Of a stretch of 64,000 bases of DNA, positions 34,261-41,403 are shown piece by piece. The stretch covers positions 1 through 64,000 of the forward strand of contig CALUIV010000014.1 in the NCBI GenBank assembly GCA_944320775.1. Reading direction: 5' to 3'. The notes below the pieces were generated by a model. The model did no database searches, was not told the origin of the DNA, and saw only the letters and a list, made by a program, of their open reading frames with translations. Position numbers and translations under genes: made by a program. The number at the start of each line of letters is the position of its first letter. Positions within the stretch are counted from its first letter, which is position 1. This DNA comes from an uncultured Paraprevotella sp. Its GTDB lineage: Bacteria > Bacteroidota > Bacteroidia > Bacteroidales > Bacteroidaceae.

Positions 34261-34291
34261 AAAAAAGTATGTCATTATTGACATACTTTTT
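34261..34291 (-). terminator. Original tRNA-fMet terminator, displaced by the prophage
   Basis: A perfect palindrome: GTATGTCA (34267-34274), loop TTAT, TGACATAC (34279-34286), flanked by A6 and T5. It abuts the left copy of the att core. Read on the minus strand directly after the tRNA 3' end sequence it forms a textbook terminator, so it ended the tRNA transcript before the element was inserted. Confidence 0.8.
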
Positions 34292-34871
34292 AGTTGCGGA
34301 GGCTTTGGCTCAGGCCATGACTAAAAAGATGACCGACATACAGACACAACGTCTGGATCTTGAAGAGAGTCGGTTGCGTCGTCAGTCAGGTCTGTATAAA
34401 CGACAAAACCGAATGTCCGGCTTGATGGCGGATAATCCTTATTTGTCAGCCTATAAGACTCAACTTGATGCAGCAGCTAAAAATTCATCTTCTTCAGACT
34501 GGCTGAATTCAAAAGCTATTGCAGATTTTATTTCCAACATGGACCGGTCGTTAGACAAAGATAAGGTCAAAAAAGCGGTTGAGGATTACATCGCCATTCA
34601 GCGCAGTATCTTCGAGGCACGTGAGTGGGTTGCTGAGCGGGATCAGCAATTACAGAATGTTGATGCTCGAGAGGCGAATCTGGCGCTTACTGCCAAGAGT
34701 CTCAAAATTAATCTTGATTCCGTGATTCCTTCCGGATCGAATACCAACACGAATACAAATATAAACTTGAATCAGACGACCGTCTCCGGTACTGATTCAG
34801 ATAAGAGCGACCCCGTCAAAGAAGAGCTGCTGCAACTTGAAGAAGATTATCTGGTCAAAAAAATCAGCTGA
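34269..34871 (+). pseudogene. Tape-measure protein, fragment 1 (truncated, chimeric start)
   Basis: An open frame of 200 codons. Its first ATG lies inside the displaced tRNA terminator, and its first ~11 codons cross the att core, so the start is artificial; authentic phage sequence begins around residue 12. The rest is helical and charged (TQRLDLEESRLRRQSGLYKRQNR, then a linker rich in Asn and Thr), as in the coiled-coil part of Bacteroidota phage tape-measure proteins. The frame ends at TGA 34869-34871, just after an A7 run (34857-34863), and the protein continues in the -1 frame. The N-terminal part of the gene is missing. Confidence 0.75.
34290..34303. repeat. Left att core (attL)
   Basis: TTAGTTGCGGAGGC, identical to 41390-41403. 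In frame with the tape-measure fragment it encodes V-A-E-A, so the phage gene itself may contain a look-alike core. Confidence 0.85.
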
Positions 34872-38363: not shown

Positions 38364-38618
38364 ATGGAAGTTGTTGTAAGAGCGCCGAAAGAAACGGTAA
38401 ACATGAAAACAAAAATGACGGATATTTTAGTATCAATATCCTGGGCAGACTTATCACGAAGATATTTTGGTAAATCGAATTCATGGTTATATCACAAAAT
38501 GGATGGGCGTGATGGTAATGGTAAACCAACCTCTTTTACTCCAGAAGAAGCAGAAATATTAAAAGGTGCTTTGTGTGATTTGGCCGACCGGATTCGCAAA
38601 GCTGCAGATCTAATTTAA
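38364..38618 (+). CDS. DUF5053-like small HTH protein
   Basis: 84 residues. The central ISWADLSRRYFGKSNSWLYHKM has the spacing of a helix-turn-helix, followed by a basic/Gly turn (DGRDGNGKP) and a C-terminal helix FTPEEAEILKGALCDLADRI. It resembles small DUF5053 proteins seen in Bacteroidales prophages and islands; that assignment is from memory. As the only HTH-like protein of the remnant it is a candidate to bind the palindromic operators upstream. Followed by a strong terminator. Confidence 0.75.
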   Translation: MEVVVRAPKETVNMKTKMTDILVSISWADLSRRYFGKSNSWLYHKMDGRDGNGKPTSFTPEEAEILKGALCDLADRIRKAADLI

Positions 38619-38671
38619 TTGCCTTGATTTACTCGAACATATTTGAACTTTATTACCTGATTAAGGCAGTT

Positions 38672-38702
38672 GAGGTGTGTCCTAATGACACACCTCTTTT
38701 TT
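38672..38702 (+). terminator. Terminator of the small-gene pair
   Basis: GAGGTGTGTC (38672-38681) pairs perfectly with GACACACCTC (38687-38696), followed by T6. Confidence 0.92.
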
Positions 38703-38743
38703 ATATATGTCCCATAGATCTGGACTACAGCACACAATCAATT

Positions 38744-38802
38744 TAACTTTGCAAAAAAATCTCCCTTTTTCTTTGCCAATCCAAAAACTATCCCCATATT
38801 TG
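38744..38802 (+). promoter_or_regulatory. Candidate promoters of the structured leader RNA
   Basis: Two -7-like boxes: TAACTTTG (38744-38751, perfect) and CATATTTG (38795-38802, one mismatch). The second would start transcription about 13 nt before the structured region. Which one is used is unclear. Confidence 0.45.
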
Positions 38803-38820
38803 CAGTGTACTACATTTTTT

Positions 38821-39019
38821 CGAAACGAGGCGGGTGATGTCCGCCAATGATTTGCGGGCTTTTTTTATGCCCGTAACATAAGCATATAATACCCTCCTAT
38901 GGGGGTAGACTTTTTGGTTCCGTCCCGTGCAGGTGCTTAATGGCCCTGCTGCCTCGTTTCAAGGTGTAGTACGACGGGGAGCGGAACCTCTTTTTGTTTC
39001 CGCAAAGCGAAACTTTTTT
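38821..39019 (+). ncRNA. Structured leader RNA ending in an intrinsic terminator
   Basis: About 200 nt without a reading frame. Helix A: GAAACGAGGC (38822-38831) with GCCTCGTTTC (38951-38960). Helix B: GGTTCCG (38916-38922) with CGGAACC (38982-38988), extended by CCCGT/ACGGG. A and B cross, so together they form a pseudoknot or are alternatives. Local hairpins: GGCGG/CCGCC (38829-38845), GCGGGC/GCCCGT (38854-38874), TACCC/GGGTA (38890-38907), GCAGG/CCTGC (38929-38949). Last comes a terminator hairpin (38996-39013) with T6, 13 nt before a gene. It looks like a riboswitch or attenuator, or a small RNA. Confidence 0.6.
38996..39019 (+). terminator. Terminator hairpin in the leader before the 39.0 kb gene
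   Basis: GTTT-C-CGC (38996-39003) pairs with GCGAAAC (39007-39013), seven pairs with one bulged C, AAA loop, then T6 (39014-39019). The 5' arm could instead pair TTCCG with CGGAA (38982-38986), which would break helix B and this stem. Confidence 0.65.
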
Positions 39020-39032
39020 AAACGTACACATT

Positions 39033-39290
39033 ATGAAACAATCAAAAACCCTGTCCGCCCCAAAGGCAGACACCATCAGCACAGTTCAGAACTGGCTGAG
39101 TTTAGAAAACAGTTTTATTTCTTCTCTTTTAGAGTCTAAAATCACTAATCGCCAGGCCCTGTTGCTTTTTAATTGCCTGACGGCATTTTCCGCACTTATT
39201 TTATTCTGTGGCTCGCTGATCGGCGCCATGGTTACGTTTTTCTGGTTCGTTTTATCGCTTTACCTGGCTAAGAAAGGAGGTTTGAGATGA
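39033..39290 (+). CDS. Small two-helix membrane protein
   Basis: 85 residues from ATG 39033 (MKQSKTLSAPKAD). A hydrophilic N-terminal ~38 residues precede two closely spaced hydrophobic helices (about 42-60 and 61-79) and a short basic tail AKKGGLR: a hairpin membrane protein. An earlier in-frame ATG (38994) lies in the leader terminator and is rejected. First gene of a three-gene overlapping unit behind the structured leader. No family recognised. Small membrane hairpins in phages may be holins or superinfection-exclusion proteins, but no lysin is present to support the former. Confidence 0.7.
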   Translation: MKQSKTLSAPKADTISTVQNWLSLENSFISSLLESKITNRQALLLFNCLTAFSALILFCGSLIGAMVTFFWFVLSLYLAKKGGLR

Positions 39291-39499
39291 AACGCAGTGT
39301 TCAATTTTCATTGGCTGTTGATCATGAGATACATGAGCACGGTGCCGTAGAGCATACATACATTGTAATAGCATCTCCGTCCGGTGACTCTATTTCGGTG
39401 AAGTCGGTCGAAGATCTCGAGGCTTTACGCGATATGTTGGCGATCCGGATACCTTTGATTAAGAAATCCTTAAAAGAGTTGACCCATGAAACAGAATAA
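39287..39499 (+). CDS. Small hypothetical protein
   Basis: 70 residues. Its ATG overlaps the previous stop (ATGA), indicating translational coupling. Beta-rich first half (SVQFSLAVDHEI, HTYIVIASPSGDSI) and an amphipathic helix in the second (VEDLEALRDMLAIRI). Soluble, cytoplasmic. Function unknown. Middle gene of the three-gene unit. Confidence 0.65.
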   Translation: MKRSVQFSLAVDHEIHEHGAVEHTYIVIASPSGDSISVKSVEDLEALRDMLAIRIPLIKKSLKELTHETE

Positions 39500-39752
39500 G
39501 ACAGAATCCAGCGCACAGCGCCTTTTCCACAATTTCCTGATGGATAATTACGACACTCAGGGGCCACAGAGCCGTATGTTGCTCATGACAACCATGGAGT
39601 TGCTGTATAAATTTCGGGGCACGGCCAGCTTGTCGCTGACCGAAGCCATCGAGGTGCTGCAGTATATCGGTTATACATCCCGGCTTGATGTCAATGGGCA
39701 GATAACCTGGATGCTGTATGAGCAGCATGATCCGATAGAATATTGGCATTAA
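39486..39752 (+). CDS. Small hypothetical protein
   Basis: 88 residues, overlapping the preceding gene by 14 nt. Helical (RLFHNFLMDNY, SRMLLMTTMELLYKF), then LSLTEAIEVLQYIGYTSRLDVNG and WMLYEQHD, compatible with a small winged-helix-like fold. Function unknown. Last gene of the unit. Its stop lies close to the oppositely directed coiled-coil gene. Confidence 0.65.
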   Translation: MKQNKTESSAQRLFHNFLMDNYDTQGPQSRMLLMTTMELLYKFRGTASLSLTEAIEVLQYIGYTSRLDVNGQITWMLYEQHDPIEYWH

Positions 39753-41389: not shown

Positions 41390-41403
41390 TTAGTTGCGGA
41401 GGC
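41390..41403. repeat. Right att core (in the intact tRNA)
   Basis: TTAGTTGCGGAGGC, identical to 34290-34303; includes the tRNA 3' end (41394 onward). Confidence 0.85.

Follow-up and report, generated by a model that had tools for sequence, protein, structure and literature searches.

A pseudoknotted phage RNA family of Bacteroidota whose closing stem probably carries an antisense strand against the start site of the next gene

Antisense RNAs encoded next to a phage switch gene are best known from phages P1 and P7. The gene for their C4 RNA lies upstream of the target in the same orientation, and the a1/b1 elements of C4 are an upstream copy of the target site, a relation that recurs below in the strand called R1. 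The type III ToxI systems likewise place a structured, pseudoknotted RNA and a terminator ahead of a gene, the RNA there being made of short repeats. The trans-acting c4 RNA is described as repressing synthesis of the Ant protein (PMC8546580, PMC8201110) and as acting on the icd and ant mRNAs (PMC10695390). The c4 antisense RNA, RF01695, is listed for Proteobacteria and phages in a paper that also lists a c4-a1b1 motif (PMC2864571), and SymR is encoded in cis to symE according to a paper whose opening deals with RNAs encoded opposite another gene (PMC1891008).

The locus described here lies in a 64,000-nucleotide stretch of Bacteroidota DNA (the window), in which an earlier note had marked 38744-39290 as a structured leader RNA. 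That span contains the RNA but is wider than it, the RNA itself occupying about 38804-38996. We hold it likely, with a probability of roughly 0.8, that this is a phage antisense RNA of a Bacteroidota family, in which the 3' strand of a long closing stem (P1) would block translation of the downstream gene. The features of the locus are the following (R1 and R2 denote sites, except where covariance models R1 and R2 are named as such).

38672-38702 (+): terminator of the upstream DUF5053 gene; 10-bp stem of -16.1 kcal/mol, then T6; called by the terminator scan
38772-38803 (+): probable promoter of the Bacteroidota type; TTTG at 38772 and CATATTTGC at 38795-38803
38804-38996, approximately (+): whole RNA; matched by covariance model R1 at 38804-38989 with 113 bits, the window being among that model's own 8 sequences
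38806-38831 (+): 5' strand of P1 (R1 at 38806-38814 plus the 5' arm of helix A); pairs with 38951-38973
38822-38831 with 38951-38960 (+): helix A, a duplex
38829-38845 (+): hairpin h1; a GGC is common to h1 and helix A
38853-38875 (+): hairpin h2, with a U-rich loop and an inner and an outer helix
38890-38907 (+): extra hairpin of the window/L002 subtype only; a gap in the remaining six rows of the 8-row alignment
38916-38928 (5' arm) with 38974-38988 (3' arm) (+): helix B, the pseudoknot; -20.3 kcal/mol as a duplex
38929-38949 (+): hairpin C, with a UUAAUG loop; covarying
38951-38973 (+): 3' strand of P1, with the antisense segment at 38956-38973; can pair with R1 or with the ORF1 start site
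38989-38996 (+): U-rich tract directly 3' of helix B, a probable terminator tail
38996-39003 (+): element D; can pair with the 3' arm of helix B and is the 5' half of a weak hairpin at 38996-39019
39023-39039 (+): R2, the putative target site, across the ORF1 start codon
39033-39290 (+): ORF1, the putative target gene; 85 aa, with two probable membrane segments (by eye)
39287-39499 (+): ORF2, unknown; 70 aa
39486-39752 (+): ORF3, unknown; 88 aa, with a homologue in genome G003

The region folds as strongly as had been claimed: 38815-39040 reaches -79.4 kcal/mol with a z-score of -4.03, and none of 200 shuffled sequences was equally stable. The two crossing helices noticed earlier, A and B, are both found at their positions. 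A third helix had been overlooked, in which 38806-38814 (R1) pairs with 38965-38973; it prolongs helix A, resulting in one long closing stem, P1, of -30.5 kcal/mol (duplex), and it is this stem that helix B crosses. The U-rich loop of h2 (GGCATTTTTTATGCC in several members) is conserved without explanation and might be a protein-binding site.

Relatives were reached by several routes. By blastn, 3 of 150 related genomes had a match, namely the window's own, G003 and G079; the 29-nt match in G079 is an isolated hairpin and was rejected as a relative, leaving G003 (87% identity) as the sole true relative besides the window. In G003 the pairings of helix A and of R1 are both rewritten with compensation. 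The third member (L008) was reached through an ORF1 homologue in another genus, the ORF1 search having given matches in 11 of 200 genomes. A first pattern scan with the conserved hairpin C yielded 2 viral and 11 genome loci; on inspection five pattern-scan loci (L018, L020, L021, L023 and L026) were chance matches and were dropped. Covariance model R1, made from 8 members, gave 27 matches in 16 of 393 genomes of the order, window included, and model R2 was then built from 34 aligned matches. Model R2 finds the RNA in 32 of 399 genomes of the family at E<=0.01, or in 26 without the six genomes whose match is weak (E >1e-6); among the more complete genomes the counts are 29 of 207 and, without weak matches, 26 of 207. 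The weak matches L136-L139, which have no TAATG core, were dropped before all statistics, and the remaining two weak-match genomes are G509 and G044. Across the phylum, 4 of 395 genomes match at E<=0.001, the new members outside the window's order being G1028, with two copies, and G801. Some loci duplicate other members (L001, L004-L007, L022, L025, L033, L113 and L120).

The family is also carried by phages. Two pattern scans of the IMG/VR viral contigs gave 40 and 14 loci, several of them near-identical, and all 54 match the model (59 matches); because the patterns drew on the family core, this result is a confirmation by the rest of the structure. One GenBank phage record matches as well (MT835542.1, 19284-19583, L155; 73.7% identity over 72% of a 401-nt query). 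The record is a 40.8-kb phage, unannotated, that came from human stool. Searches of plasmids and of more phages gave no relatives beyond it, and a 1,101-nt query from the window had no match in the phage collection. The earlier note recognised no known class in the RNA, which agrees with Rfam, no family of which matches it: at gathering thresholds the window has nothing but two tRNAs, with RF01695 unmatched, and 11 related loci have no match; up to E 10, the region 38600-39300 gives only two sub-threshold sRNA matches and no C4. Searches of an open-access collection, which mostly leaves out subscription papers, turned up no description of the family. The RNA family appears to be so far unnamed; it has no Rfam match and is present in many phages and prophages of Bacteroides-type bacteria.

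Alignment of the homologues, which the earlier note had proposed as a check, reveals strong covariation in P1 and helix B. In 107 aligned matches (106 distinct), 90.9% of cells are paired, a count that leans toward the structure because the alignment was fitted to it, and double changes are seen at all 39 modelled pairs. The covariation score is 0.687 for the 106 distinct rows, against 0.196 for shuffled and at most 0.083 for slid pairings. Hairpin h1 has 96.6% of cells paired and double changes at 5 of its 5 pairs, and hairpin C 87.2% and 6 of 6, respectively; in h2 the inner helix is paired in 89.9% of cells, the outer in only 65.2%. Helix B was never modelled as paired, so that its permutation test is independent of the structure-fitted alignment: the mean longest complement between its arms (G-U allowed) is 8.9 nt for cognate pairs versus 5.2 otherwise (66 distinct members; 0 of 10,000 permutations). 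For P1 the corresponding means are 8.8 and 4.3 (54 distinct seeds; 0 of 10,000), nine unparsed matches having been left out of the test for both helices. The core elements CCC(C)GUG, the UUAAUG loop and CGGG are largely invariant in the 8-row alignment.

The upstream gene, assigned to DUF5053 by a Pfam match, ends in the terminator at 38672-38702, which separates the RNA from transcription upstream. A promoter-like TTTG...CATATTTGC lies immediately 5' of P1. The Bacteroides promoter consensus is TAnnTTTG, and the window has CA in place of its TA. Among the members, 108 of 120 have TTTG in the last bases 5' of P1, and 68 of 120 the fuller TAnnTTTG or a 1-nt variant of it. At the other end, the intrinsic terminator that the earlier note placed at 38996-39019 is weak, its stem being interrupted, of only -3.0 kcal/mol and absent from the terminator-scan calls. 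Helix B with its U-run appears to be the better candidate: a T-run of at least 4 follows the helix in 105 of 113 members, window among them. As a terminator this arrangement is plausible, but its stem is pseudoknotted, and element D could compete for it only once the U-run has already been transcribed.

In the first members examined, the R1 sequence recurs where the next gene begins, close before its start codon or spanning it (R2), and both copies are complementary to the 3' strand of P1. R1, the antisense strand and R2 co-vary across members and tandem copies, as GCTCAACA, GCGTAACA, GCGATACA, GTCTAGCA, GTCAAGCA and others. An unconstrained duplex search over 600 nt often chose long looped sites inside coding sequence, and for that reason it was set aside for exact-run and start-region tests. 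Pooling gave 128 matches, of which 124 were parsed and 105 remained after removal of four doubtful loci and near-duplicates; the tests used the 54 of these whose 9-nt seeds differ and which have an ORF downstream and 150 nt or more of downstream sequence. Some tests left out L029, L043 and L056, copies that are truncated, and members with no ORF or less than 150 nt downstream.

The longest exact complements between the 21-nt 3' strand of P1 and the 250 nt downstream sum to 435 for the 54 cognate pairs; permuted sums have a mean of 311 and a maximum of 344, and 0 of 20,000 reach 435, the permutations here and below treating related members as independent. Runs of at least 8 nt occur in 37 of 54 cognate pairs versus 4.6% of non-cognate ones, and are absent within 250 nt downstream from the other 17, window among them. 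By hand count, 33 of the 37 sites begin between -13 and +1 of the nearest ATG that opens an ORF of at least 30 codons, a nearest-ATG rule that favours this figure. Pairing energies against the start region (-26 to +20) tell the same story, with a cognate mean of -16.2 kcal/mol versus -7.85 (53 members; 0 of 20,000 permutations). For 41 of 53 start regions the best strand is the cognate one, and for 46 it is among the top three; ranks are poor for L035, L036 and L037. The surroundings of L036, L037, L049, L054 and L056 yielded no convincing trans target. The window's own duplex, 38956-38973 with 39023-39039, spans the ORF1 ATG at -17.7 kcal/mol, the best value among all 53 antisense strands for this start region; this bipartite duplex consists of blocks, not one long run, and its longest exact run is 6 nt. 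Three members found after the hypothesis had been fixed (L152, L153 and L154, with start regions cut by hand) behave likewise, each beating all 58 other strands. In five tandem pairs, 9 of the 10 units have their own exact site of at least 8 nt and the tenth, the second unit of L031, has a site with mismatches (all by eye). Fold, covariation and cognate start-site complementarity can all be read off the sequences themselves.

That the variable strand of P1 tracks each member's own start site suggests that translation is under antisense control. For expression, the end of the RNA behind helix B, repression, the opening of P1 and action in cis or trans we infer the following. An RNA of roughly 190 nt would start at its own promoter, fold with the long closing stem P1 crossed by the pseudoknot helix B, and probably end at the U-run 3' of helix B. 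The 3' strand of P1 would then leave its own 5' strand and pair with the start region of the mRNA, blocking translation of the target. Of the 48 members with an antisense-target duplex of -11 kcal/mol or stronger, 47 have a P1 that is stabler still; the antisense strand should therefore be hidden, and the model requires that something open the stem. This could be processing that removes the 5' strand, a protein partner, or the way the RNA folds while it is being made, and a protein may help the antisense RNA. The RNA could act on its own transcript, on other copies, or on both. In the window the target would be the small membrane-protein operon that starts with ORF1, and members that precede antirepressor or Rha genes would likely hold lysogeny, as C4 RNA does in P1 and P7.

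The same pairing could also work within a single transcript. CGGAA at 38982-38986 can pair either in helix B or with 38996-39003, as the earlier note had pointed out and as the sequence bears out, and this competition looks like one case of a general pairing between D and the 3' arm of helix B. In 48 distinct members, Watson-Crick runs between the two come to 235 versus a permutation maximum of 217 (0 of 20,000) in a test that was confined, after the first test, to the 27 nt 3' of the U-run; over that span 1 of 20,000 permutations does as well when G-U is allowed, and over 130 nt the signal is weaker (1 of 10,000 Watson-Crick, 147 of 10,000 with G-U). Pairing of D with helix B, and of R2 with the 3' strand of P1, would nest into one hairpin hiding the start site, and 38956-39052 of the window folds into exactly this hairpin at -24.3 kcal/mol. 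A cis switch might therefore exist beside or instead of a free RNA. In its pure form, the read-through mRNA would toggle between the pseudoknot (P1 and helix B formed, start free) and the start-hiding hairpin, and a free RNA would be unnecessary. This explanation overlaps with the antisense one, and that cis action is the whole story we regard as a genuine but minority possibility. D is not universal (none is seen in L050, L051 and L076, for example), the U-run suggests a free RNA, and the L049 and L054 RNAs have no target gene immediately downstream.

The earlier note had called the element riboswitch- or attenuator-like, or else a phage small RNA. A structured phage RNA with mutually exclusive pairing it is, but the ligand-riboswitch part of that description is not supported. 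A riboswitch or protein-sensing leader, with the CCC(C)GUG, UUAAUG-loop and CGGG core binding a metabolite or a protein, would fit the near-invariance of these nucleotides and the pseudoknot architecture with its mutually exclusive pairing; it is improbable, however, given that the variable part follows the target start site and that the first genes of known family are regulators or SymE-like and do not belong to one pathway (most have no Pfam match). No Rfam riboswitch matches in the window. About as improbable is a DNA-level element, in which R1, its inverted copy in P1 and R2 are one protein-binding site present three times, as in a repressor operator or an integrase arm site. Such an element would have three near-identical 8-9 bp sites that co-vary across members and tandem copies, as these do, and at 603 antisense positions in 48 members R1 and R2 present the same base for pairing. 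However, U.G is the most frequent pair at two P1 positions, which points to RNA and not DNA, and helix B covaries though it has no such sites. R2 also sometimes matches the antisense complement where R1 deviates (L040, L042 and L044, by eye): 36 positions pair with R2 only and 36 with both through different bases, while 293 pair with R1 only because P1 is longer than the target site. The R2-only and different-base positions fit antisense pairing better than they fit a DNA site in triplicate, without proving it.

The genes behind the RNA are diverse. In the window the three overlapping genes of the earlier note are confirmed at 39033-39290, 39287-39499 and 39486-39752; none of ORF1, ORF2 and ORF3 has a Pfam or PHROG match, and a search of the viral contigs returned nothing related to ORF1 or ORF3. 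Weak homologues of ORF1 (L009-L017; E about 5e-6 to 9e-4) occur in genomes of the same family; by eye, no such RNA lies upstream of them, and in L013 and L017 the homologue adjoins a likely phosphoglycerate mutase gene. Among 92 non-identical first ORFs, called mechanically and in some cases truncated or doubtful, Pfam finds Bro-N in 13, Rha in 3, KilAC/ANT in 3, KilA-N in 1, SymE in 1 and, weakly, LacI in 1, and the top PHROGs family is the anti-repressor Ant phrog_130 (15 of 92). At least 70 of the 92 have no Pfam match, so that a lysogeny role cannot be called general; many targets are small proteins without a family, including membrane proteins related to ORF1. Among the members found after the hypothesis had been fixed, a SymE gene follows the RNA in L152 and L154, and a Bro-N gene in L153. 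The RNA stands at the head of a tight series of genes leading into larger phage genes in L019 and L030, and of a looser one in L028; a 450-aa protein of L019 matches phrog_22277 and, weakly, a portal family. The SymE-like gene that follows the RNA at L041:1501-1856 seems, by eye, to carry a frameshift. The RNAs at L049:1501-1658 and L054:1501-1654, which lack a target gene immediately downstream, are followed by an opposite-strand gene resembling an XRE-type repressor (by eye).

The prophage that carries the window's RNA had been described as decaying, and it does look reduced, with about 7.1 kb between 14-bp direct repeats (TTAGTTGCGGAGGC, at 34290-34303 and 41390-41403) and a tape-measure protein, of 426 aa, whose matches cover just a portion of its families. 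One copy of TTAGTTGCGGAGGC lies in the 3' end of a tRNA-Met gene, adjoining the integrase gene, and the repeats are probably the attachment sites of a 7.1-kb prophage remnant. Elsewhere the RNA occurs as tandem units with different keys (L074, L068, L086, L032 and L031). In tandem loci the first ORF1 copy runs into the promoter of the next unit and is cut at several different places, and RNA and start site stay matched despite the cut. The RNA copies at L031:1244-1447 and L047:1299-1447 have no visible R1 strand, and their antisense strands would fit start sites that occur elsewhere in the family, TGCACTACA in L052 and TGCTCAACA in L008 and further members.

Tentatively, and at less than even odds, the family could be viewed as an exchangeable pseudoknotted chassis with a fast-changing key of 9-20 nt for each guarded gene, be it an antirepressor, a SymE-like protein, or a small-protein or late operon, the keys then being RNA immunity types. 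If so, a lysogen that carries tandem units with unlike keys would be immune to several phage types at once. The RNA family is present in roughly one eighth of the more complete genomes sampled from the bacterial family and in dozens of viral contigs, and would exemplify a structured RNA in which the specificity element and its target evolve together. It yields a testable hypothesis of how Bacteroides-type phages hold switch genes off, together with a ready covariance model.

Of the systems introduced at the outset, ToxI resembles the family in that a structured, pseudoknotted RNA and a terminator precede the gene, but here there is one RNA unit, without short repeats (by eye), and no type III toxin is among the six Pfam families matched by the 92 first ORFs. 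The likeness to SymE/SymR is that in L050, L152 and L154 a SymE-family gene follows the RNA directly and its mRNA start is complementary to the RNA; in these three, however, the RNA is structured, upstream and on the same strand, not opposite the toxin gene. C4 comes closest. As with C4, the RNA is phage-borne and upstream of its target on the same strand (L049 and L054 excepted), it is complementary to the translation start of the target (by the permutation tests, with 17 of 54 members lacking an exact 8-nt run), and its targets would in part be antirepressors (Bro-N, Rha and KilA-N, 13, 3 and 1 of 92), although ORF1 of the window matches no family. Unlike C4, the window and the 11 related loci do not match the RF01695 model, the fold is a long closing stem with a pseudoknot in which the antisense is one strand of P1 and its partner a copy of the target, the targets include SymE-family and unknown small proteins, and the hosts are Bacteroidota, whereas the paper cited above lists RF01695 for Proteobacteria and phages (PMC2864571). 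By analogy, then, this RNA family would work like the C4 of P1 and P7 while being separate from the C4 family.
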